A stretch of 29,995 bases of DNA, from IMG/VR virus record IMGVR_UViG_3300030333_005952, positions 1 through 29,995 of that record, one strand, 5' to 3'. Made by a program: the position numbers and the translations under genes. This document shows positions 6,875 to 29,995 of the stretch, in pieces. This DNA is from a virus. The notes under the pieces were generated by a model that did not search any database, was not told where the DNA came from, and saw only the letters and a program-made list of their open reading frames with translations. Within the stretch, counting starts at the first letter, position 1. Each line of letters starts with the position of its first letter.

Positions 6875-6886
6875 TTACACTATATT
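6875..6886 (-). promoter_or_regulatory. GTGTA-type candidate promoter
   Basis: Reads AATATAGTGTAA on the minus strand. The same 12 bases occur upstream of the portal gene (13120-13131). It ends 10 bases before the ATG at 6864, directly after a terminator, so transcription of the next gene must restart here unless readthrough occurs. Confidence 0.65.
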
Positions 6887-13170: not shown

Positions 13171-16100
13171 TTAATTATTTTTTAGTGCTTCTACTTCTGC
13201 TTTCAGAGTCTCTACTTCTTTTATCGTCTCTTGTAGCGCTGACCATAGTATTGGGATCAAGCCTCTATCAGAAATATGTTGAGCTTTAATAGACCCATCT
13301 TCGTTTAATTGGTCTTTATCTTCTGGTACTACTGTATTTATTTGCCCCAAGACCTCTTTCATCTCATGGGCCAAGAAGCCGACTTTCGGAATGTCCATAG
13401 ACTCTCCGGTATCTTTAGCTCCTTTTTCATTCCAGTTAAAAGAATACACTGGTACTTGTTTTATAACATTAGTAGAGCAGCAAAGGTTAGACCAGCAAGT
13501 TAAATTAGTTTTTAACCGGTAATCAGAAGAAGGAGAACTGCTCATGTAAAAATAACAAGTATTTCCATTTTCATCATGGAACATAGGGTTGCAACCATTA
13601 ACAAAGAAGGTACCGTAACAATTACTATAATTTGAAGAACCAGTACAACTACGCTTTAACATTAAATAGCCTCCGCTATTGTAATTTGAAAGTATTCCAT
13701 AACATGTAGCGCTATTTTTTACTTTAAATATCGGCGCGTCCGTGCATGAAGTGCCACAGAGTTTAGAAGCGCAAAAGCCACAGCTATTGCAAGTAGTCAC
13801 CCATCCAGATGCCCCATCACATGTTTTTCCACCGCCGGCAGTGATTCCAGTTATGTTCGACCCATCTCCATGAAGTGTTCCGCACACATTTGTAGCTCTA
13901 ACAGTTGGAGCGCAAACAATAGTAGTGCCGCACAAGGTCGCACCTTTAACAAGCGTAGAACCACAAACAGTAGCAGCTTTAAGGCAGTCATTAACGATTA
14001 GCTCACTCTGTAGAACGCTATTAGCTATTGTATTGTTTCCACATATTTTAGACCCATCTATATTGGTTCCTTGTACTAGGTAATTTGCAGAGTTAGGAAA
14101 TATATTGTTTGGTATTTTATTAGGTGCAACTTTTCTAGCGCCAGTATTGCTGATGCAAACAAAAAATCCGTCACTAGTCGTAACATCTGATGTATATGCT
14201 GCAGCGTCTGTAAAGCTAGCGCCAGATGAACCGCTTGAACCAGAAGTCCCAGCTGGGCCAGTTATTCCACTTGAACCAGATGAACCACTAGAGCCGCTTG
14301 AGCCAGATGGTCCAGTTGCTCCACTTGATCCACTTGATCCACTTGATCCAGAAGTTCCAGCTGGGCCAGTTATTCCACTTGAACCACTTGAACCACTTGA
14401 ACCAGAGGAACCGCTTACACCACTTGAACCAGAGGAGCCGCTTGTACCAGATGAACCACTTGAGCCACTTGTACCAGAGGAACCGCTTGCGCCAGACGAA
14501 CCACTTGATCCACTAGAACCACTTGTACCATCTTCGCCACTTGAACCACTTGATCCACTAGAACCACTAGAACCACTTGTACCATCTTCACCACTTGAAC
14601 CAGACGAACCACTTGAGCCACTTGAACCAGAAGAGCCACTTGCACCACTTGAACCAGAAGTACCAGACGACCCGCTTGTTCCACTAGAACCAGAAGTACC
14701 AGACGAGCCACTCGTGCCAGATGAACCACTTGTTCCGCTAGAACCAGAAGTACCAGATGAGCCACTTGTCCCAGCATCCGACATTATTTCGACTGCTACA
14801 TCGATTATGTTTCCTGTTGAAAATGAACCGGCGGTACTAATTTGATCTACCGGTACAATAAGTATAGCGTTGTTTCCACTATAAGAGCCGCCAACGTTAC
14901 CGGTCACTTCATACTTCTGTATGTTTGAATTACTCAATGTGCTTGGTAAATCGGAGCTACTAGTAACCCCAGTATCTGTAAGTGTAATTATTGCTCGTCT
15001 GCTTGTATTAGTGCTGTCATCCCAAGTGTGTATATAACTTACTTGGTTGTTGCCGTACACATCACTTGCGTTAAGGTAAAGATGAGAGTCAAACAGAGAC
15101 TTACCCATTTCGCCGGGGACAAGTGTGCCAGAAGATGGGGTTCCGGGGCCGTTGTAATCAAATTTATAAAATATAGATGAACCATAGTTTCGGTCGCCAT
15201 CTTGGCCACTAGAACCAGAAGACCCACTAGAGCCAGATGGTCCAGTTGCACCATCTTGACCACTTGAACCAGATGAACCAGAAGACCCACTTGAGCCAGA
15301 TGAACCACTCGTGCCAGACGAACCACTCGTTCCACTTGAACCAGAAGTTCCAGCTTTGCCACTTCTAGAAAAAGAAATTAAACAAATATCGCCATTGCTA
15401 AAAGGGCTGTCGGCGCTATAACCTGTTTCATCAATATTAAAAATCCAGAACGGACCATGATCAGTAAGGTCACTAGTAGCGTCAAAAGAAATAAATTTAG
15501 AAGGGTTAAATTTTTCCGTAATCTTTATAGAAAAAGGTATATCATTATAATCTGTATCGGGAAGATGATAAAAGAAATCGGCTACCGTAGTGTTATTATT
15601 TGTATCTTCATCTATATGAATAGCACCAGCCTCCCTCTGTGTATTGCTACCACTACCAAACCTAAAGCTTTTATTAGATGGTTGTCCTCCAGTAGTACTT
15701 TCAAATATAAATTCAAAAGTTTGACCTCCGAAGTCTCCGTCTTGACCAGATGAACCACTTGAGCCACTTGAGCCACTTGAACCAGAGGAACCACTTGTAC
15801 CACTTGAGCCAGAGGAACCACTTGTACCACTTGAGCCAGAGGAACCACTTGTACCACTTGAGCCAGAAGAGCCACTTGAACCAGACGAGCCACTTGAACC
15901 ACTTGTACCATCTTCGCCACTTGAACCAGACGAACCACTTGATCCACTAGAACCACTTGTACCATCTTCGCCACTTGAACCACTTGATCCACTAGAACCA
16001 CTAGAACCACTTGTACCATCTTCACCACTTGAACCAGACGAACCACTTGAGCCACTTGAACCAGAAGTTCCGTCTACCCCTTTATCTCCCGTACGAGCAA

Positions 16101-19100
16101 AAGTAATTATAATGTCTTCATTATTAGAAAAAGTTCCGCTACTATCTATGATGTTACATTCAACATTAAAGTAAGTATCACTAGTTTCATTATGCAAAAC
16201 GTCTGCATCATCTCCTAAGATTCCCTCGCGGTTTGTAATTGTTGCAAGAACGTACGTTGAAGAATCAAACTTTTTAGTGACCTTGAAATGCCCTTTTATA
16301 GTAGAAGTTGAGTCAGCAATTGTTTGTAGGTAACTGCTTATATTATCTGAGTTAGCGTCTAAATAGTCTATAGAAAGGTACTTTACATTACTGTAAGTAG
16401 AGTTGTTGAAAAATAGTTTTCCATTAGCTGGCTGTCCACTTGTCTGAGTTGAAAAGGCATATTCAAAAGATGCACCGCCAAAGTTTCCATCTTGTCCACT
16501 TGAACCAGAGGAACCACTTGAACCAGAGGAGCCACTTGCACCACTTGAACCAGATGAACCACTTGAACCAGAGGAACCAGAGGAACCGCTTGCGCCAGAC
16601 GAACCACTTGAGCCACTTGAACCACTTGAGCCAGAAGAGCCACTTGAACCACTTGAGCCAGAAGAGCCACTTGAACCAGATGATCCACTTGAACCAGAAG
16701 GTCCTTGAACACCTCCAAGGTTTATTGACCAAGAATTATAAGGCCCAGCTCCATTACTCGCTCCCCCTGTACTAGTGACAGACAAATTACTTCCAGAAAA
16801 ACTATCCACTGTAGCATCAAATTTATTAGCCGGAGCAGCAGTAGGGGTAATAGTCAAAGGCTGCCCAATGGAATAAGCGTAAACACTACTATCTAAAACA
16901 AATTGCAAGTAAGCAGTATCACTATTGGTGGACACGTAAGTTTCTGGATGCCCGTCTGGAACTTTTCTACTAGAGGTACTAGTAGATTTGTATAAAGCTC
17001 CATCAGCCCCACTTGAACCGGATGAACCAGATGAACCACTTGTACCAGATGAACCACTTGTACCAGATGAACCACTTGTACCACTTGAGCCAGAGGAACC
17101 ACTTGTACCACTTGATCCAGAGGAACCACTTGTACCACTTGATCCAGAGGAGCCGCTTGTACCACTTGAACCAGAGGAACCGCTTGCACCACTTGAACCA
17201 GAGGAGCCGCTTGCACCACTCGAACCAGAGGAGCCGCTTGTACCAGATGAACCACTTGAGCCACTTGTACCATCTTCGCCACTTGAACCAGACGAACCAC
17301 TTGATCCACTAGAACCACTTGAACCATCTTCGCCACTTGAACCACTTGATCCACTAGAACCACTAGAACCACTTGAACCATCTTCGCCACTTGAACCAGA
17401 GGAACCGCTTGTACCACTTGAACCACTTGAACCAGAAGAGCCACTTGAACCATCTTCGCCACTTGAACCACTAGAACCACTTGAACCATTTTCACCACTT
17501 GAACCAGAGGAACCGCTTGTACCAGATGAACCACTTGAACCACTTGAACCAGAAGAGCCACTTGAGCCATCTTCACCACTTGAGCCACTTGAGCCAGAAG
17601 AGCCACTTGAGCCATCTTCACCACTTGAGCCATCTTCACCACTTGAACCAGAGGAACCGCTTGTACCAGAGGAACCGCTTGTCCCAGAGGAACCGCTTGT
17701 GCCAGATGATCCACTTGAACCAGATGATCCACTTGATCCGGAGGAACCACTTGTACCACTTGTACCACTTGAACCAGAGGAGCCACTTGAACCACTATCA
17801 CCAGTACGAGCAAATGTCAAAACACACTCATCGCCATTAGTAAAAGGAGAGGACGCGCTAGAAGCAACCGCATTAATATCTACCTTGTGGTAACCATTTG
17901 GCTCCGGGTCAACATTGTTATTTGGGCCTATCGTAAATAAAATAAACGCACTAGTGTCGAAGCGTTTAGTTACTTTGAAGTGACCTTTAATTGTGGATGT
18001 CGAGTCGTCGATAGTCCTTAGATAGGATTCTATGTTATTTCCACTTGCGTCTTGGTCGTCTATAAGCAAGAAGCTCGCATTGTTTTGGATGTTTGTTCCT
18101 ACGTTAAAGCCAAAGCTTCCATTTCCCGGATCAGAATTAGTTACTGAATTGTTGTAAGTGTATCTAAAAGCAGCTCCCCCAAAGTTTCCATCTCGTCCAC
18201 TTGATCCACTAGAGCCACTTGAACCAGAGGTGCCAGAAGGACCAATAGGACCTTGGGCACCTAAGGTGTTTATAACTCCATCAGCAACGCTTCCACTTCC
18301 AGCTATAACAGCACTAGAAGTTATAGTCATGGCCCCGGTTCCGGAATTATAACTAGCTACGGTGCCTTCAAATTTTTTGGTTGTTGGATTGGCGGCACTT
18401 ACTAAAAGTACACCCTGACCTACAGTCCAAGCTAGTCCTCCTTCTGTAGTTATGGAAACCGTGTCCCCTGAGCTACTAGGCAAAGTAAATGTTGAGACAG
18501 TCGTACTCTTAAACTTATCTCCGGAATAACCAGAAGTACCAGAAGACCCAGAACTTCCAGAAGAACCAGAAGTACCAGAAGGACCCCTTTGTCCTACCCT
18601 GTCATTAATTACCATTTTTCCACCCCAAACATGATCAGTATGCAACCCGCAGTTATAATAAAGTACATCTGGTGAACTTTGGGGAACGGTAAATAAAAGC
18701 TCTGAAGTAGCACTTCCTCCAGCGACGCTAGAGTTACCACTGTTAACGCCAGTAGGATAGGCATTAGCGAAATTGCCTAAAGTACCCGTAGCTGTAGCTA
18801 TATACAATTTAGCACTATTACTCGCTAACGTAGAGGAAGATATATCGAACTTATACGTCTCCCCTCTCTGCAAATATATAGTAGGAGTTTTAGATTGCGC
18901 TGTTGTCTCATGGCTTCCCGCTACAACATCAGAAAGGTACAAATAAAGATCACTCCCGTCACTCTGAGCTGTGACTTTGAATTCTTTTTGAAAATAGCCG
19001 CTAACATTAGTTGTTAAAGTATTGAGAGTGCTGCCCGTAGAAGCTATACTTGCAGAAAGCTGAACGCCACTTTCCATAAGTTTTCCTCCTCCGCTTATGT

Positions 19101-19509
19101 CCAAGTTGCCACTTACTATTGCGTCTCCGCTGACATGAAGCTTCTTTTGAGGAGCGCTAGAAGAAGAAAATTCACCGATACCTACGTTTCCATCGTAGTA
19201 TAAGTGATCAGCTCCATCAAACACAGGTTGACTCGCATGTTTAAATTGAATTTGCCCAGCGGAACCAGAAGGTATACCTCCATGTGTAGATATTTTTGTA
19301 TTTAAGTCACCACTAGCGGTATCAATTCTGGTCTTGATTTCATCTGTGTAGCCACTTAAAGCGCCACTAGTCGTACCCACATAAGACTGAGTAGCTAATC
19401 CACTTGGGTCAGATAATGGGTAAAAATGACCAGACCCCACTTCTGCCATAAAACCGCTAAATTCACCGGATTCTGTTTGGTTAAGTCTGATTAAGTTGTC
19501 TGAAGGCAT
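13171..19509 (-). CDS. Collagen-like fibre with S74 chaperone domain
   Basis: 2112 residues. Order of parts: N-terminal cap (1-165, with 'GNVGIG...LHVSGD' as in the other fibre); a cupredoxin-like beta domain (about 175-303) ending in 'YYNCGLHTDHVWGGKMVI'; seven Gly-X-Y tracts, mostly GSSGSS/GTSG with some GEDG (306-330, 417-441, 570-837, 933-1008, 1141-1258, 1384-1438, 1580-1763), separated by two kinds of beta module (type II at 331-416 and 838-932; type I at 442-569, 1009-1140, 1259-1383, 1439-1579); a cysteine-rich zone (1823-2011); and a C-terminal Peptidase_S74 intramolecular chaperone from about 1995 ('SSDYRLKTN', Ser1995 the expected self-cleavage residue) ending in a coiled coil. It is a trimeric host-contact fibre. 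A GTGTAA element lies 12 bases before the ATG; no Shine-Dalgarno. Confidence 0.88.
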   Translation of the reverse strand: MPSDNLIRLNQTESGEFSGFMAEVGSGHFYPLSDPSGLATQSYVGTTSGALSGYTDEIKTRIDTASGDLNTKISTHGGIPSGSAGQIQFKHASQPVFDGADHLYYDGNVGIGEFSSSSAPQKKLHVSGDAIVSGNLDISGGGKLMESGVQLSASIASTGSTLNTLTTNVSGYFQKEFKVTAQSDGSDLYLYLSDVVAGSHETTAQSKTPTIYLQRGETYKFDISSSTLASNSAKLYIATATGTLGNFANAYPTGVNSGNSSVAGGSATSELLFTVPQSSPDVLYYNCGLHTDHVWGGKMVINDRVGQRGPSGTSGSSGSSGSSGTSGYSGDKFKSTTVSTFTLPSSSGDTVSITTEGGLAWTVGQGVLLVSAANPTTKKFEGTVASYNSGTGAMTITSSAVIAGSGSVADGVINTLGAQGPIGPSGTSGSSGSSGSSGRDGNFGGAAFRYTYNNSVTNSDPGNGSFGFNVGTNIQNNASFLLIDDQDASGNNIESYLRTIDDSTSTIKGHFKVTKRFDTSAFILFTIGPNNNVDPEPNGYHKVDINAVASSASSPFTNGDECVLTFARTGDSGSSGSSGSSGTSGTSGSSGSSGSSGSSGSSGTSGSSGTSGSSGTSGSSGSSGEDGSSGEDGSSGSSGSSGSSGEDGSSGSSGSSGSSGSSGTSGSSGSSGENGSSGSSGSSGEDGSSGSSGSSGSSGTSGSSGSSGEDGSSGSSGSSGSSGSSGEDGSSGSSGSSGSSGSSGEDGTSGSSGSSGTSGSSGSSGASGSSGSSGASGSSGSSGTSGSSGSSGTSGSSGSSGTSGSSGSSGTSGSSGTSGSSGTSGSSGSSGSSGADGALYKSTSTSSRKVPDGHPETYVSTNSDTAYLQFVLDSSVYAYSIGQPLTITPTAAPANKFDATVDSFSGSNLSVTSTGGASNGAGPYNSWSINLGGVQGPSGSSGSSGSSGSSGSSGSSGSSGSSGSSGSSGSSGASGSSGSSGSSGSSGSSGASGSSGSSGSSGSSGQDGNFGGASFEYAFSTQTSGQPANGKLFFNNSTYSNVKYLSIDYLDANSDNISSYLQTIADSTSTIKGHFKVTKKFDSSTYVLATITNREGILGDDADVLHNETSDTYFNVECNIIDSSGTFSNNEDIIITFARTGDKGVDGTSGSSGSSGSSGSSGEDGTSGSSGSSGSSGSSGEDGTSGSSGSSGSSGSSGEDGTSGSSGSSGSSGSSGSSGTSGSSGSSGTSGSSGSSGTSGSSGSSGSSGSSGSSGQDGDFGGQTFEFIFESTTGGQPSNKSFRFGSGSNTQREAGAIHIDEDTNNNTTVADFFYHLPDTDYNDIPFSIKITEKFNPSKFISFDATSDLTDHGPFWIFNIDETGYSADSPFSNGDICLISFSRSGKAGTSGSSGTSGSSGTSGSSGSSGSSGSSGSSGQDGATGPSGSSGSSGSSGQDGDRNYGSSIFYKFDYNGPGTPSSGTLVPGEMGKSLFDSHLYLNASDVYGNNQVSYIHTWDDSTNTSRRAIITLTDTGVTSSSDLPSTLSNSNIQKYEVTGNVGGSYSGNNAILIVPVDQISTAGSFSTGNIIDVAVEIMSDAGTSGSSGTSGSSGTSGSSGTSGSSGTSGSSGTSGSSGTSGSSGASGSSGSSGSSGSSGSSGEDGTSGSSGSSGSSGSSGEDGTSGSSGSSGSSGASGSSGTSGSSGSSGTSGSSGSSGVSGSSGSSGSSGSSGITGPAGTSGSSGSSGSSGATGPSGSSGSSGSSGSSGITGPAGTSGSSGSSGASFTDAAAYTSDVTTSDGFFVCISNTGARKVAPNKIPNNIFPNSANYLVQGTNIDGSKICGNNTIANSVLQSELIVNDCLKAATVCGSTLVKGATLCGTTIVCAPTVRATNVCGTLHGDGSNITGITAGGGKTCDGASGWVTTCNSCGFCASKLCGTSCTDAPIFKVKNSATCYGILSNYNSGGYLMLKRSCTGSSNYSNCYGTFFVNGCNPMFHDENGNTCYFYMSSSPSSDYRLKTNLTCWSNLCCSTNVIKQVPVYSFNWNEKGAKDTGESMDIPKVGFLAHEMKEVLGQINTVVPEDKDQLNEDGSIKAQHISDRGLIPILWSALQETIKEVETLKAEVEALKNN
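14221..14772 (-). repeat. Collagen-like tract 7 (Gly-X-Y)
   Basis: 184 residues of Gly-Ser-Ser / Gly-Thr-Ser triplets with a few GEDG and 'GITGPAG' units, made from variable 9- and 18-base units. Confidence 0.9.
15196..15360 (-). repeat. Collagen-like tract 6
   Basis: 55 residues of Gly-X-Y, bounded by 'GKAG' and 'GQDGD', containing one 'GATGPSG' unit. Confidence 0.9.
15736..16089 (-). repeat. Collagen-like tract 5
   Basis: 118 residues of Gly-X-Y with three regularly spaced acidic GEDGTSG units about 18 residues apart, ending in 'GQDGDFGG'. Confidence 0.9.
16486..16713 (-). repeat. Collagen-like tract 4
   Basis: 76 residues of Gly-X-Y, nearly pure Gly-Ser-Ser with two Ala substitutions, between 'GVQGPSG' and 'GQDGNFGG'. 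Confidence 0.9.
16999..17802 (-). repeat. Collagen-like tract 3, the longest
   Basis: 268 residues of uninterrupted Gly-X-Y, mostly Gly-Ser-Ser, with GEDG or GENG units in the first half and GTSG/GASG in the second. Confidence 0.92.
18187..18261 (-). repeat. Collagen-like tract 2
   Basis: 25 residues, 'GAQGPIGPSG' followed by Gly-Ser-Ser triplets, ending 'GRDG'. Confidence 0.85.
18520..18594 (-). repeat. Collagen-like tract 1
   Basis: 25 residues, 'GQRGPSG' then Gly-Ser-Ser/Thr triplets, ending 'GYSG'; it follows the cupredoxin-like domain directly. Confidence 0.85.
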
Positions 19510-19541: not shown

Positions 19542-20525
19542 TTAATGTATAAATACTATATTGTTTATGTATTTTTGAAACAAAGATTCAGCTACCTCTG
19601 TCTTTTTTACCCCATGAATAAAGAAAATGTTTTCCTTATCTTCAGGAACCGCGAACCATTCGTCTTTTTCGTTAAAAAAAATGTTACCATGCTCTTTCTT
19701 CCAAAACGGAATAGCTAGACTCTTTTTAAAAAACTCACAAAAGTTCAAATAGGCGTAGTCACGAAATTGCAAATTTGGGTTTAAATCTATTGATCCTAAA
19801 TCATCAGACAGGTAAGTTGAAGCATTATACTTAGATAACATTGCGTTCATAAACGTCTCGCCGTTTACTGGCATAAAAATATTCTCGCTTAAGCACTTTT
19901 TATACAAGTCTACTGATTCAGACCAAAAATCAAAAGAATTACTATGAGAAAGACTAATACAACCAAAGGCGTGCCAAGGAAGCCTGTTTTTCGCTCCAAC
20001 AAATTCCATACATTCTTCGCTAAGTAAATTAACTTTCTTGCCATTTTTCCACATAAAGACGCTTTGGTATGTATGCTTTCTCAACAAAGGATACTTCAAG
20101 TGCTCTATATTTTTTTCCCAAATTCTGTCTATGTATTTTGTCGCTATAACATCAGAATCCACCCATGCAACCTTTTCATACCCCATTTCAAAAAGCTTCA
20201 AGTTTAATTCAAATTTAGAAAGCCAAAAAGAAGCAGCGAAATCATCTGAAAAGTCAGTAAACGAGTCAACGCCTGAGCCGCCAACCTGCCTAAATCTATT
20301 AGGGCTAGGAAGATTTCTTTTTTCTTCAAGATTTATAACCTCCATATTTGGGTAATCAAAAGGTAGTTTAGAGTTTGAAAAAACGACAATCTTCCGAGTT
20401 GAAAAAATACACAAGCTCCTAATCAATATCTCTAAGACATTTATATAGTTTTCTGACCAGTGATTTTCGCCACTATCTTCGTCTTTAAATAAAATAGTAG
20501 AGAATACTTCTTTTTTGGTGTTCAT
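19542..20525 (-). CDS. GT-A type glycosyltransferase
   Basis: 327 residues from the ATG at 20525, which overlaps the stop of the upstream gene as ATGA; this coupling decides the start over a Met 11 codons upstream. 'EKVAWVDSDVIA' carries a DxD motif (Asp123, Asp125), the metal and nucleotide-sugar site of GT-A fold enzymes, most like GT8-type retaining transferases. Residues around 'PWHAFGCISLSHSN' and the His near 'FFIHG' at the end fit a C-terminal acceptor region and a third metal ligand. No signal or membrane segment, so cytoplasmic. With the upstream three-domain transferase and downstream fibre it forms a likely fibre-glycosylation cassette; it may extend the sugar laid down by its neighbour. 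Sugar and acceptor are unknown. Confidence 0.7.
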   Translation of the reverse strand: MNTKKEVFSTILFKDEDSGENHWSENYINVLEILIRSLCIFSTRKIVVFSNSKLPFDYPNMEVINLEEKRNLPSPNRFRQVGGSGVDSFTDFSDDFAASFWLSKFELNLKLFEMGYEKVAWVDSDVIATKYIDRIWEKNIEHLKYPLLRKHTYQSVFMWKNGKKVNLLSEECMEFVGAKNRLPWHAFGCISLSHSNSFDFWSESVDLYKKCLSENIFMPVNGETFMNAMLSKYNASTYLSDDLGSIDLNPNLQFRDYAYLNFCEFFKKSLAIPFWKKEHGNIFFNEKDEWFAVPEDKENIFFIHGVKKTEVAESLFQKYINNIVFIH

Positions 20526-23242
20526 GATTTTTCTATTGTTTGATCTTTTTCGTTCCACCTAAAACCACATTCTCCGTTATAAAATTTTTTTTGGTATTCT
20601 ATTTTATCTTTTATGCTATTAGGGCCACAAGTGTTTTTTGAGTTAGTCCAAGTGTAGTGGTCTGGGAAAGCTATTTCTTTAGGTACTTTTGTATTCTTTT
20701 TTAATCTATATTCTTCTCTATCTTCGTAGCAAAAATGATTATCCCAATAATACTCTTTTATTCCTCCGTGTCTTTTAGTCCATATTAACCTAACAGGAGA
20801 AAAGTCTTCCCAATCACCATCATCTCCTACGTAATTTTTAAGCTGTATTGCGTACCAGTCAGATTCAGCATTGTTTTTGACGAAGTTGATAGTATCTCTG
20901 ATTTGTTGTTCGGTATAAAATTCATCTGCATCTAGCATGAATATTAAATCTATGTCTTTTTCTTTGCAATAGTCGATATGCAAACTTCTAGACTCGTGGT
21001 CGCTTAAAGCCTCTTCAGGTACAGAAAGGTAGTCTATAATGTTGGAGTAGTCGTTCTGAAACATCGAAAGCGTTTCTGAATTACTGTCTTCTACGCCCAT
21101 CTCTTCGTATATTTTGAATTGCCTACTATGTACCCAAAAATCTAAATTCAATTCGTCTTTTAACTTCACCCAAGGTTCAAATAATCTGGGAAAAGCTTCC
21201 GCACAATTGTAGGCCATAATTTGGACGCCTATTTTGACTTTTTTTGTTATTAGGTTTATTTTCTCTTTTACCATTTTAAAAGTTATACCTTTAGAGCATT
21301 CAAAACTTTTATTTTCAGGACACCAATTCCAGTCCCCCTTATCAAACTTATGGCTTATGTCGTTCCAACAGCTATTGCATACGTCTAAGTTCTGCACTCT
21401 ATAAGGCGTTTGAAATTCTGCAAAATATTTACTAAAGCCAGATATCAAAACTACTTTTCTACCAAGAGCCCAAGCTAACCAAGACATCCCGGACCCTAAA
21501 CCAATAAAAAACTCACAATGCTGAATCCAGCCAGCGGCTTGCTCTAAATCAGTCGCTTCGGGGTGAATAACGTTTTTCAAAGAAGGAGTGTCCATCCATC
21601 CTAGGGGCTCTTTTTGAATAACTACAACTTTATACCCAAGCTCGCTTAGATAGTCGACAGTTTGCTGCCATCCAGACTTGTTCTGCCAGTGCTTTAAGCC
21701 CGCTGTAGAAGCTATAGATATGCAAACATATTTTTCTTTCAAGTTTCTAGGCCTATCTTTTTCGTGTAGCTTAGGCCTCACCTCTCTGTGTTCTAATCCT
21801 AGTATGTCTGAAGCAGTTTGCTGTAAAGGTATAGACCTTGGGTCGTTAGGGTTTCTATTAGTGTTTTTCCAGTCGTCAAACCAACCTAGTTGATAAGAAG
21901 CATAGCAATCTACTATCTCGTTATGAGAAATAAAATTTATATTAGGATATGACTCTCTTAATAAATCATTATGGAAAGTCTGACAAAAAATAATACAATT
22001 ATACTTTACTCTAAACTGCTCTACATATGGTATCCACGCGATAGTGTCTCCAACAGAACTACTGTCAAACGAAATTAAAACTTTTTTATCTTTTGCGTCA
22101 AAAGTTTCTTCATAAATAATCTCGCCGTTTTCTTCTTCTACTTTTATTCTCCAATTAACAAACGTTTTTGGGGAAGGTTTTGCCCAATGGTGGCAAAGCA
22201 AACTGGTTTGATAAACTAATTCATTATTTTCGTTGTCTATAAAACTTACTTTGCGTTTTCCAGAAAAGTTTCCCGATAACTCACAAAAAGCTCCATCGAC
22301 AAACGAGGTCTGTACTAAGCAGTTTTCCGCAGGAGAAAATAGCTTGGATACTTTCTCCACGGAAGGATGGCACTCGAACGTTTCTTTACTTTCTAGACAC
22401 TTCCATAAAGGCGGTGTTACATTAAACTTGCCGTGCTCTTTAACCGCATACTTTAAGTCAGACGCGCAAAAAATATCACAATCACCACCAACATAAGTAT
22501 ATCTATATTCTTGACTACCCATTCTGAATGGAGCGCGGAACTTGTAGTTTATAGAACTACCTAATTGAATTATCTCCGTGTTTGTCGAACCAGCTAAATG
22601 AAGGAGGCCCGTATCCATTGTAATGAATTTTTCTGCCCTATTAATAATGTGCCAAGTTTGAGACAGGTTGGCCTTTTCGGAGAGGTCTATTAGGTTTGGG
22701 TTTTCTTCAAACTTAAATATATATTTTATTTTTGACCAGCTTCCTACCTCTGGTTCTTTTTCAGTCTTGCCTGTTATGACTACCTTGTGTCCCAGATCTA
22801 TGAGGTAGTCTATTAATGCTTGCCATTTTTCTTGTGGCCAAGTTCTGGATTCCCAATTGAAAGCAGGGTGAATGCAAATATAGTTTAAAGGAAGATCTAA
22901 GTCTTCGTATTTGTCAGCGATAAAATCATATTCCATCTCTTCAGGCAAAAGTCCAAAACCTAGATACTTAGCATGCAAGGCTCTTATGTCAAAAGAGTGG
23001 TTTAGTTGGTGACTCCAAGCAACGTCATGAATGTCTTCTTTATTGTATTGTTCTTTAATTTTTTCTACATTCTCTTCCCACAAGAATATTTTATTAACGT
23101 ATGGATTATTTTTGAAAACCTCTGGGTTGTAAGTAATAATGTCTATTTTTTCTCTATAAGCTTTTGAGAGCTTTCTTAAAGAAGGGGTAGTAGAAAGAAT
23201 GTCTCCTAGCCCGCGACAATGTATTAAATAAAGCTTTTTCAT
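20522..23242 (-). CDS. Three-domain transferase: GT9 + TibC-like heptosyltransferase + GT2-like
   Basis: 906 residues. Domain 1 (1-300) is a GT9-like heptosyltransferase fold: 'HCRGLGDILSTTPSL' at the start, 'HPAFNWESRTWPQEKW' at 125-140 and 'MDTGLLHLAG' at 209-218. Domain 2 (about 307-665) matches the autotransporter O-heptosyltransferase family (TibC, Aah, BAHT): an N-terminal beta domain, 'FDSSSVGDTIAWIPYVEQF' at 392-410, and the iron-finger cysteines Cys622, Cys625, Cys641 and Cys649 in 'CNSCW...DWNWC...FEC'. In the family these bind Fe3+ and the enzyme adds heptose to Ser of adhesins. Domain 3 (669-906) is a GT-A/GT2-like transferase with 'LDADEFY' (Asp771, Asp773). The ATG overlaps the terminase stop. 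Domain calls come from motif recognition; the donor sugar is unproven. Confidence 0.8.
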   Translation of the reverse strand: MKKLYLIHCRGLGDILSTTPSLRKLSKAYREKIDIITYNPEVFKNNPYVNKIFLWEENVEKIKEQYNKEDIHDVAWSHQLNHSFDIRALHAKYLGFGLLPEEMEYDFIADKYEDLDLPLNYICIHPAFNWESRTWPQEKWQALIDYLIDLGHKVVITGKTEKEPEVGSWSKIKYIFKFEENPNLIDLSEKANLSQTWHIINRAEKFITMDTGLLHLAGSTNTEIIQLGSSINYKFRAPFRMGSQEYRYTYVGGDCDIFCASDLKYAVKEHGKFNVTPPLWKCLESKETFECHPSVEKVSKLFSPAENCLVQTSFVDGAFCELSGNFSGKRKVSFIDNENNELVYQTSLLCHHWAKPSPKTFVNWRIKVEEENGEIIYEETFDAKDKKVLISFDSSSVGDTIAWIPYVEQFRVKYNCIIFCQTFHNDLLRESYPNINFISHNEIVDCYASYQLGWFDDWKNTNRNPNDPRSIPLQQTASDILGLEHREVRPKLHEKDRPRNLKEKYVCISIASTAGLKHWQNKSGWQQTVDYLSELGYKVVVIQKEPLGWMDTPSLKNVIHPEATDLEQAAGWIQHCEFFIGLGSGMSWLAWALGRKVVLISGFSKYFAEFQTPYRVQNLDVCNSCWNDISHKFDKGDWNWCPENKSFECSKGITFKMVKEKINLITKKVKIGVQIMAYNCAEAFPRLFEPWVKLKDELNLDFWVHSRQFKIYEEMGVEDSNSETLSMFQNDYSNIIDYLSVPEEALSDHESRSLHIDYCKEKDIDLIFMLDADEFYTEQQIRDTINFVKNNAESDWYAIQLKNYVGDDGDWEDFSPVRLIWTKRHGGIKEYYWDNHFCYEDREEYRLKKNTKVPKEIAFPDHYTWTNSKNTCGPNSIKDKIEYQKKFYNGECGFRWNEKDQTIEKS

Positions 23243-28278: not shown

Positions 28279-29055
28279 TTATTCTAAAGTATTAACTTTT
28301 TTGACTATATACTTTAAAATATCTGAACGAACAATATCTTCTTCGCCAAACTCAAAAGTATGTATACCGTTGTCTTTAGACTCGTCATCGTTAAATAGCT
28401 CTTTAAGCCTCACAAATGCCCCTCTGTTGCCGTTTTTAAGGTCAGTCTGCATTGGGTCAGCACAAATAAATATTTTGCTGTTGTGGCCAATTCTCGTGAG
28501 GAAAGTGATAATTTCTTTAAGCGTGCTGTTTTGGCATTCGTCTAAAATTAGACATTTTCCATTCCAGCTCATTCCTCTGGAGAAGTTGATTGGGTAAGTC
28601 GCGACTCTCTCCTCTTTTTGCAAGCGTTTAATATCTGCTTCAGATAGAAGCTCGTTAAGCTTATCAATAAAGGGTAAGTTGAAATAATGTAATTTAGTGT
28701 CCGCATCTCCGGGTAGGAAACCTAATCTCGCGTCAGAACTTTCTACTGCAGACCTTACATACACTATTTCAGAAACAGCTTTTTTGTTTAAAAGCCTTAA
28801 CCCAGCATATACAGCAAGCATAGTTTTAGAAGTTCCAGCTGGGCCAGTTGTGAAAACAATGTTCGTAGAATCATCTAAGGCTAATTTTATGAAATCTTTT
28901 TGTTTTTCTGTCCAATTTAGATCTTTGATATGAAAATGATCTCTTAGCGCTTCTCTTTGGTAGATCGAAACACTTCTATCTACCCCGACACCCTTTGGGC
29001 TAATCTCTAAGTCATCAAAAGACTCAAGGACAGCCCTAGTCCTTACTTTAGGCAT
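28279..29055 (-). CDS. phoH: PhoH-like ATPase
   Basis: 258 residues from the ATG at 29055. A longer frame to 29121 would add 22 residues but would run over the start of the divergent gene, so the shorter start is chosen. Walker A 'GPAGTSKT' (71-78), 'YVRSAVESSDARLGFLPGD' downstream, and Walker B 'LILDECQN' (Asp172-Glu173), followed by the conserved 'ADPMQTDL', are the PhoH family signature. PhoH is frequent in marine phages; proposed roles include RNA helicase or RNA-processing functions, none settled. Single gene with its own GTGTAT element 11 bases before the ATG. Confidence 0.9.
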   Translation of the reverse strand: MPKVRTRAVLESFDDLEISPKGVGVDRSVSIYQREALRDHFHIKDLNWTEKQKDFIKLALDDSTNIVFTTGPAGTSKTMLAVYAGLRLLNKKAVSEIVYVRSAVESSDARLGFLPGDADTKLHYFNLPFIDKLNELLSEADIKRLQKEERVATYPINFSRGMSWNGKCLILDECQNSTLKEIITFLTRIGHNSKIFICADPMQTDLKNGNRGAFVRLKELFNDDESKDNGIHTFEFGEEDIVRSDILKYIVKKVNTLE

Positions 29056-29066
29056 ATCATTTAATA

Positions 29067-29072
29067 ATACAC
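29067..29072 (-). promoter_or_regulatory. GTGTAT candidate promoter of phoH
   Basis: TTGGTGTATTATT on the minus strand, 11 bases before the phoH ATG, only 13 bases from the divergent plus-strand element. Confidence 0.55.
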
Positions 29073-29085
29073 CAAAATAAAAACA

Positions 29086-29091
29086 GTGTAA
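29086..29091 (+). promoter_or_regulatory. GTGTAA candidate promoter of MscS-like gene
   Basis: AACAGTGTAATATAAAAT on the plus strand, 8 bases before the ATG at 29100. No Shine-Dalgarno. Confidence 0.55.
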
Positions 29092-29099
29092 TATAAAAT

Positions 29100-29528
29100 A
29101 TGGCCAATGAATTAGTAACACCCCAAATGAAAGAAATGTTTGAGGATTTAATCGGCACCTACGGCTGGTTTATCCTTGCAGGCTTTTTGGCTGTACTCTT
29201 AAAAGATGCTATACACAAAGCAGCCGAAGGTTTTATGGTATTTATGGGGAAGGACTTCCAAAACGACGACATTCTATATATTTCCGGAAGGCAAGCGCGT
29301 ATAGTTCGCGTCGGTTTTTTCAAGACTATTTTTTATATGACAGACCGCAAAACTAAGATGGTCGTGCCAAATGACAGGTTAAAAATGCTGGTTGTAGAAA
29401 AAACTTTACCTAAAAACGGAGGCTTTCCTTATTTGTTTAAAGCTGGAGAAGCAGGGTATGAAGAACAAAATGAAATTCTTAAACAAATGAATGAAATACC
29501 GAAGACAAGTAAAAAAGACAAAGTGTAA
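29100..29528 (+). CDS. Mini MscS-like membrane protein
   Basis: 142 residues. One hydrophobic helix at about 20-47 ('YGWFILAGFLAVLLKDAI') followed by a beta domain at 52-102 whose pattern ('KDFQNDDILYISGRQARIVR...', then 'MVVPNDRL') matches the pore helix TM3 and beta domain of MscS mechanosensitive channels, including the Pro-Asn before the last strand. The usual TM1-TM2 and the large C-terminal cage are absent; a polar tail of 40 residues replaces the cage. It may oligomerise in the inner membrane. Role is unknown: turgor control, membrane permeabilisation or infection-specific membrane organisation are possible. First rightward gene, with GTGTAA 8 bases before the ATG. Confidence 0.6.
   Translation: MANELVTPQMKEMFEDLIGTYGWFILAGFLAVLLKDAIHKAAEGFMVFMGKDFQNDDILYISGRQARIVRVGFFKTIFYMTDRKTKMVVPNDRLKMLVVEKTLPKNGGFPYLFKAGEAGYEEQNEILKQMNEIPKTSKKDKV
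29523..29528 (+). promoter_or_regulatory. GTGTAA candidate promoter overlapping a stop codon
   Basis: GTGTAA 8 bases before the ATG at 29537; the same bases are the final Val codon and stop of the MscS-like gene. Confidence 0.5.
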
Positions 29529-29536
29529 TATCTAAC

Positions 29537-29995
29537 ATGGGAGATATACATGCTTTAGCCATAAATGGCAATTTAAAAGGTATAAAGCAGGCTTTAGGGA
29601 ATAAGAGACTTCTTTCTTCTCTAGATGACGAAAAAGGCTGGAGCCCGCTTCATTACGCAGCCAACAAAAGTAAAGCAAAAATAGTGCAAGTAATCCTAGA
29701 CGCAGGGATAAATCCTAATATAAAAAGTAAGCCACCCGAAGGTCAAAAGCAAAACGATTGGAACCTAGCTCTAGAAGATAATAAAGAGAACAAAACCCCA
29801 ATAGTTCATCCTATGGACGTCGCAGAAGGACCTCATCGAACTAAGATACTAAATAACCTAATAGCTAAAGGTGGAAAGTTTTGCGCGGAAGATTTAAACT
29901 TGCATCAAGCAGTTCAAGTGCAAGATATAGATGAGATAGAGTGTCTACTAGAAGATGATTCTATAAAAATAAATGAAAGAGATGGTCGGGGCTGG
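29537..29995 (+). CDS. Ankyrin-repeat protein, 3' end beyond window
   Basis: 153 residues to the window edge with no stop. Residues about 31-64 are a canonical ankyrin repeat ('DEKGWSPLHYAANKSKAKIV' followed by 'LDAGINPNIK'); a second degenerate unit lies near 85-115 and a third near 120-150 ('LHQAVQVQDIDEIECLLEDD', with 'INERDGRGW' starting another). Ankyrin repeats bind proteins, so a role in host interaction or regulation is possible, but no catalytic part is visible. The start follows the MscS-like stop by 8 bases; no Shine-Dalgarno, GTGTAA upstream. Confidence 0.75.
   Translation, partial: MGDIHALAINGNLKGIKQALGNKRLLSSLDDEKGWSPLHYAANKSKAKIVQVILDAGINPNIKSKPPEGQKQNDWNLALEDNKENKTPIVHPMDVAEGPHRTKILNNLIAKGGKFCAEDLNLHQAVQVQDIDEIECLLEDDSIKINERDGRGW

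Follow-up and report, generated by a model that had tools for sequence, protein, structure and literature searches.

The MscS-like gene and its surroundings

The window (the whole 29,995-base stretch of DNA analysed) encodes a terminase large subunit, a sigma-70-type factor, a PhoH-like ATPase, an ERCC4 nuclease and a collagen-repeat/Peptidase_S74 protein, so that the phage setting is right. Towards its end, between phoH and an ankyrin-repeat gene, lies a short ORF whose product comprises the equivalent of one helix and one domain of the mechanosensitive channel MscS. The features of the region are itemized in Table 1. One related contig (L003:7528-9117) likewise encodes an ankyrin-repeat protein, of 529 aa, near its MscS-like gene.

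Table 1. Features of the MscS-like gene and its neighbours, in window coordinates
Feature	Position	Strand	Basis
MscS-like TM3–β protein, 142 aa	29100..29528	+	Intact ORF, ATG to stop; relatives; PF00924 in family; Foldseek
Hydrophobic part of helix, equivalent to MscS TM3a, residues 18-34	29151..29201	+	Hydropathy; structural alignment of model to EcMscS
TM3b-like segment with K-[DE] kink motif, residues 35-53	29202..29258	+	Profile alignments; K35 nearly invariant in A5
MscS β-domain (five strands, short helix after VPN), residues 54-103	29259..29408	+	AF2 model; invariant positions
Conserved tail LPKNGGFPYL..GE.GYEEQ in place of MscS α/β cage, residues 104-124	29409..29471	+	10 of 22 positions (103-124) invariant in A2
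PhoH-like ATPase, divergent neighbour, 258 aa from conserved MPK start	28279..29055	-	PF02562, 4e-49
Phage sigma-70-type factor, candidate reader of GTGTAA	27167..27853	-	PF04542, 2.7e-7
Ankyrin-repeat protein, 8 nt downstream of MscS-like gene, cut by window end	29537..29995	+	PF00023, 2.5e-9
GTGTAA, putative phage late promoter, 8 nt before start codon of MscS-like gene	29086..29091	+	Upstream hexamer analysis
ATACAC (GTGTAT on minus strand), facing near-copy on phoH side	29067..29072	-	Inspected upstream spaces
GTGTAA of ankyrin gene, overlapping end of MscS-like gene	29523-29528	+	Motif scan

The MscS-like ORF is a real gene. Relatives were found at 39 loci of the IMG/VR collection with a narrow profile and at 174 loci with a broader one, from which the best 80 were kept. 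The coding sequences are under purifying selection, with a median dN/dS of 0.064 and a maximum of 0.195 for 24 usable pairs that are not independent of each other. The phage proteins of this type are ~104-170 aa long.

Starting at the N terminus, ~15 residues of the window protein precede the TM3-equivalent helix. The hydrophobic segment spans approximately residues 16-35 with a peak hydropathy of 1.78, after which the chain continues through the kink into the β-domain and ends with a further ~40 residues. Each of 41 diverse family members has at most one hydrophobic segment, and the TM1–TM2 tension paddle of MscS (or TM2 alone) is thus absent from all of them. In 12 of the 41, including all six short paralogues described below, the hydrophobicity of this segment is no more than moderate (peak 1.25-1.56, against a threshold of 1.6 that was our own choice). 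The C-terminal α/β cage with its side portals is also absent, the residues that follow the β-domain containing a single short helix in the predicted structure. The sequence N-terminal to the helix is net negative in 40 of the 41 members, which suggests a helix probably oriented like TM3 of MscS, with its N terminus outside and its C terminus inside.

Conservation is distributed unevenly along the chain. In alignment A2 (38 sequences) 37 of the 49 positions of the β-domain (54-102) are invariant compared with 5 of 17 in TM3a, a contrast exaggerated by the placing of the search patterns within the β-domain. Charged residues such as R64, R67, R70, D82 and R83 are invariant in A2. The invariant columns fall to 18 in the broader alignment A5, where K35, located at the TM3a–TM3b kink, remains nearly invariant and is followed by D or E. 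The mean fraction of glycine and alanine in TM3a is 0.28 in 20 long proteins, 0.29 in 15 proteins of a third group and 0.39 in six short ones, compared with 0.50 in 14 MscS proteins, and the helices may therefore not pack like those of MscS TM3.

Relationship to MscS

Taken alone the window protein provides weak evidence of MscS identity; it matches the MscS family PF00924 with E = 0.023 and 15.2 bits, below the Pfam cut-off of 20.2. The evidence is strong at the level of the family. When the 41 diverse members were scanned singly, 33 matched PF00924 at E ≤ 1 (best 3.6e-7), and one relative exceeds the cut-off, with 30.9 bits. Profile searches of the PDB ranked MscS first. Fifteen long members returned two rows, with Helicobacter pylori MscS at the top (E = 0.034), a mixed set of 26 returned MscS in 13 of 14 rows (best E = 0.0064), and the short paralogue by itself returned it in 12 of 14 (best E = 0.014). 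With all 41 members MscS occupied 11 of 14 rows and the top position (E = 0.0055), while rows 2-4 were MraZ and Cdc21. These searches were run to a limit of E = 10, their E-values are marginal, and most of the MscS rows are constructs of Escherichia coli MscS and so not independent.

The relationship was also examined from the bacterial side. A family HMM built from A5 was run against 40 ORFs from bacterial loci, and all 15 genuine MscS proteins (E up to 0.0018) outrank the other 25 (best 0.097). Using hhalign against an alignment of 14 of the 15 MscS proteins, the full family alignment A5 scored 89% (E = 2.3e-6) and the short paralogue alignment A4 78%, whereas the 15 closest sequences alone reached 21% and the phage sigma factor, used as a control, 0.3%. 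The profile alignments run from TM3 into the β-domain in the MscS register. Identity to MscS is ~8-26% in the fold and profile alignments. Phage resources gave little: PHROGs yielded weak matches only (six at E ≤ 0.1, none bearing a name), and tblastn of 50,697 phage records found no match for the window protein (E ≤ 0.01) or for a short or a third-group relative (E ≤ 0.1).

The structure of the window protein was predicted by AF2 using 41 diverse sequences, giving a model of moderate confidence (pLDDT 71.4, pTM 0.41). It comprises a helix (residues 8-49), strands at 58-61, 64-71, 75-80 and 85-90, a helix at 91-96, a further strand at 99-103 and a helix at 120-131. A helix followed by five strands is the order of the MscS β-domain. 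A model from 15 close sequences was poor (pLDDT 51.5) and was left out of the fold search. Foldseek returned 904 PDB matches at E ≤ 10, of which 24 were at E ≤ 0.001. Among the best 50 of the 904, 45 are titled MscS, YnaI, MscK, MSL or Flycatcher, four are titled 'a membrane protein' and one is unrelated. The entries 3udc and 3t9n, which bear the title 'a membrane protein', belong to an MscS; with these four chains counted, members of the MscS superfamily occupy rows 1-49 of the 50 listed.

Structural alignment with VIA-align places residues 12-105 of the model on residues 91-180 of EcMscS. The first 16 rows are all MscS-superfamily chains, aligned within residues 12-105 with Z-scores of 8.0-9.3; a value near 8 counts as modest according to the tool's own note. 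Unrelated barrels (TnsB, Tudor, CarD, FeoA) reach Z 6-7 on the β part alone. Assignment of the phage protein to the MscS superfamily thus rests on the profiles and the predicted fold jointly. A sequence-only reading of the window had proposed a single membrane helix with an MscS β-domain, without TM1–TM2 or cage, in a phage. Profiles and fold bear this out, and the model, rather than lacking the MscS β fold, retrieves chains of the superfamily.

This leaves little room for a chance resemblance between the phage protein and MscS, in which a helix happens to precede an unrelated Sm- or SH3-like barrel. The sub-threshold Pfam score of the single sequence, the marginal E-values in the PDB and the scores reached by unrelated barrels would fit such a resemblance. 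Set against these are the agreement between separate profiles of two paralogue families, the fold search, the relative that passes the PF00924 cut-off, the 33 members that match this family, the HMM ranking and the hhalign comparison, by which we regard chance as largely refuted and its remaining probability as close to negligible.

Genomic neighbourhood and distribution

In 74 of 79 contigs phoH stands immediately next to the gene, or to the pair of paralogues, and is divergently oriented. Its frequency was estimated from a scan with the sigma factor, independent of the MscS-like gene; this hit at least 531 loci, of which the 80 with the best scores were taken. PhoH together with at least 600 nt beyond it was present in 46 of the 80, and 14 of these 46 carry the MscS-like gene. 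All 14 fall among the 15 loci with the closest PhoH (E < 1e-130), this division having been chosen after the data were seen and with a PhoH profile trained on gene-bearing contigs. Within the fetched flanks, the gene was not found in the other 31 loci, and an unfiltered search of the sigma–PhoH loci for a diverged copy gave three matches at chance level (E = 3.3-4.1). The gene thus seems to be near-constant within a single clade of uncultured tailed phages, and not across the wider group. The exception among the 15 (L170:3793-4511) has a close PhoH without the MscS-like gene, and the gene that comes next directly adjoins phoH.

GTDB contigs were scanned twice; no relative came up the first time and one the second, on a contig binned with a Flavobacteriales MAG. 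Of the 71 ORFs of this 77-kb contig (NZWA01000041.1, L118-L121), 55 have homologues in a 144-kb phage contig (G016); it is therefore phage DNA that was binned with the MAG, and points only weakly to a host. Queries of the phage collection with bacterial MscS matched 4 and 17 records, several of which are bacterial contigs or short unannotated pieces. One MscS found in this manner, MaAM05, was rejected; it is flanked by purB and glgX and looks like host DNA.

The script found the long gene in 79 contigs, and a second, shorter paralogue occurs in 22 of these. (The contigs examined numbered 81; in L006 and L093 the long gene was missed by the ORF caller, though tblastn had it.) This is not a fair frequency, since contigs were selected for their similarity to the window protein. 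Searching with the short protein gave 27 loci, partly in the same contigs. The paralogue was called as 104-111 aa in 20 contigs and, from an upstream ATG, as 157 aa in two. In 21 of the 22 it is placed directly between phoH and the long gene, from which it diverges; in the remaining contig (L008) it is on the same strand, ~3.7 kb away. In the window no short paralogue lies between phoH and the long gene, although one may be present beyond the window end. The short proteins have 28-35% identity to the window protein in A5, form one side of a tree branch (93/91), and have a helix richer in glycine and alanine (AGAAG).

The GTGTAA motif

GTGTAA is the most enriched hexamer upstream of genes, found before 49 of 354 starts in the window and three long contigs (L110-L125), compared with 1.3 expected. 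Of 52 copies lying within 30 nt of a start, 46 have their end 8-16 nt ahead of the ATG. The window has sites at 6880, 10674, 13125 and 19527 on the minus strand and at 29086 and 29523 on the plus strand, and the motif stands ahead of genes encoding proteins of 126, 495, 644 and 2112 aa. It also precedes the gene for a 2194-aa tape-measure-like protein in the 144-kb contig. It is present ahead of the MscS-like gene in the window and in all three long contigs, and ahead of phoH in G016, G001 and G020:C12, while the phoH side of the window has GTGTAT in its place. More widely, a generous upstream region contains GTGTAA for 72 of 79 long genes. Among 21 long genes whose upstream spaces were inspected, 19 have GTGTAA there and one (L105) has GTGTAT; the last (L069) overlaps the preceding gene and there is no space. 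A facing TACAC is also present in most of these spaces. The short paralogues divide differently, with GTGTAA in 8, GTGTAT in 13 and neither in 1 of 22.

The motif is unevenly distributed in the 144-kb contig. It precedes 1 of 48 ORFs in a region of replication- and sugar-like genes (L110-L111) and 21 of 107 in L112-L116 (Fisher P = 0.0025), where the split and the gene labels were made by eye and L117 (0 of 6) was left out. Lying mostly ahead of virion-block genes and the MscS-like gene and seldom in the presumed replication region, GTGTAA looks like a phage late promoter, perhaps used with the phage's own sigma factor; it may instead have a role in translation. A literature search on GTGTAA as a promoter found no paper. 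The motif lends indirect support to the late timing that had been suggested for the gene from the sequence.

Lysis genes in a related phage

The sequence-only reading had also raised the matter of a separate lysis cassette, and the 144-kb relative encodes a Hydrolase_2 endolysin (PF07486, 6e-15) and an Rz-like spanin (phrog_456, 2.3e-5). Approximately 120 nt from the spanin gene, and preceded by GTGTAA, lies a gene for a hydrophobic-looking protein of 64 aa without a family match that could be a holin. Homologues were found by tblastn for the endolysin in G001, for the spanin in G020:C12 and for the 64-aa protein in G020:C12 and L008, and for none of the three in the window, itself a genome fragment. 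A separate lysis set thus exists in a relative, and the MscS-like gene need not be the holin; the endolysin and spanin also speak against the MscS-like protein being the whole lysis machinery. Holins are diverse; no holin family is found among the Pfam matches of the 41 members at E ≤ 1.

Comparison with known MscS-type proteins

The MscS proteins of E. coli and H. pylori share with the phage protein the TM3a–TM3b helix, the kink motif (KD in H. pylori MscS, 4hw9) and the β-domain with a VPN-type turn. They differ in possessing the TM1–TM2 paddle and the α/β cage, in place of which the phage protein has its conserved PYL/GE.GY tail, and in length (~286 compared with 142 aa); the helix of the phage protein contains less glycine and alanine. 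MscS descent is clear. In the open-licence papers searched there was no phage protein of such an architecture, which is reduced beyond any described member that we found.

The closest precedent is TcMscS of Trypanosoma cruzi. According to its description (PMC12334622), this protein lacks the TM1 equivalent and the cage, yet is a functional heptameric mechanosensitive channel with lipids in its pore. It is there called the minimal functional MscS unit and retains an N helix and TM2; without the N helix it was unstable or badly seated in the membrane in simulations. Like the phage protein TcMscS (9bgq, 9bgu) has the MscS core without a cage or full TM1, and the fold match has Z 7.1-7.2, but the phage protein has kept the TM3 equivalent only.

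MscS-like folds occur in other viruses. Those of Aureococcus anophagefferens virus and Sylvanvirus (PMC6163359) differ in being larger, one of 261 aa with three predicted transmembrane segments and one of 651 aa, and in belonging to eukaryotic giant viruses and not to phages. The best viral fold matches are two unnamed BFVD entries of similar length, A0A516LVN0 (104 aa) and A0A516MLU7 (129 aa), with E ~2e-6. These are possibly members of the same family. In two further reports, MscL is named as a gene near prophage sites in Oenococcus (PMC8074189), and the list for a Staphylococcus aureus prophage clade includes apparent host genes such as metE, YchF and RpsF (PMC8460829).

Possible function

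The reading that we favour, tentatively and as something a little short of probable, is that the protein acts late in infection as an oligomeric valve in the inner membrane, formed by a ring of TM3–β subunits and relieving turgor or passing ions. A protein of the MscS line, cut down to the TM3-equivalent helix and the β-domain without paddle or cage, would be expressed late from the putative GTGTAA promoter that it has in common with virion genes. Through its β-domains it would assemble within the inner membrane of the host as a ring, which in some phages might also take in the shorter paralogue. The ring of TM3 helices would then form a small, lipid-dependent pore, and this could relieve turgor or pass ions while virions fill the cell. 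TcMscS, a channel without TM1 and cage, is the best precedent for such a valve; against it, the phage protein lacks TM2 as well, and so goes beyond the TcMscS truncation that sat badly in the simulated membrane. The low glycine and alanine content of TM3a, its lower conservation and, in some members, its moderate hydrophobicity also count against a channel.

The main rival, which we place below the valve and consider unlikely, is that the β-domain persists as a docking module tethered to the membrane, whose partner might be PhoH, a virion assembly factor or nucleic acid, with no pore at all. The β-domain is more conserved than TM3a, as if a partner of this domain mattered most, and charged residues in it are invariant in A2, but this conservation is inflated by the position of the search patterns. 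The persistent divergent phoH gene would fit a docking partner, as would a helix that has partly lost its glycine/alanine pattern and is moderately hydrophobic in some members. Yet a mere anchor would need neither the TM3b kink motif nor the helix–β register, both of which are retained, and the shorter paralogue preserves the Gly/Ala-richer helix. It is distinctly unlikely that the protein is instead a holin-like or membrane-depolarizing late protein, accumulating in the inner membrane and opening either to finish the cycle or to set the moment of lysis. A small single-helix membrane protein with a putative late promoter would suit that role, and in 19 of 79 contigs the next gene encodes a small protein with, as judged by eye, seemingly one helix and a coiled coil; the relative with its endolysin, spanin and separate 64-aa candidate argues the other way. 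To our knowledge no holin has a cytoplasmic β-domain on an N-out helix. A subunit that joins or poisons host MscS, altering the osmotic response of the host, is highly doubtful. The TM3–β register is the same as that of bacterial MscS, and MscS is widespread, PF00924 being found in all 13 genomes of one Flavobacteriales family and in 14 of 14 controls. Against this, the low identity makes mixed rings look unlikely, and the paralogue pairs of some phages suggest that these proteins have partners of their own.

The valve could be taken further. In its fullest form the protein would be the smallest MscS-type channel known, made as TM3–β rings from a late promoter, with two divergently transcribed paralogues combined as hetero-oligomers in some of these phages, and holding the virion-filled cell intact until the phage lysis genes act; that all of this applies together is possible but on the unlikely side. 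If TM3–β alone gates, a single helix with one small barrel would be enough to sense membrane tension, and the protein would be a minimal model for channel biophysics. A membrane gene of MscS descent that is near-constant and apparently late would signal that the phage manages the turgor or ion content of its host before lysis.

Other genes of the window and related contigs

Two large genes are located on the minus strand of the window. One (13171-19509) encodes the 2112-aa protein of tail-fibre type, with 12 matched collagen-repeat stretches and the Peptidase_S74 end. The other (20522-23242), beside the terminase, encodes a 906-aa protein with a heptosyltransferase match (Glyco_transf_9, 1.3e-24). 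In the related contigs genes resembling those of pilins or pseudopilins (GFTLIELLVVIAII...) are found at L124:509-2436, L025:4989-5936, L032:4061-5068 and L112:10395-10670, and in G001 such a gene comes directly after the MscS-like gene. Similar 'RNAF' signal-peptide proteins are encoded near pilin-like genes at L123:18336-18875 and L112:10672-11352, the labels of both groups having been given by eye.
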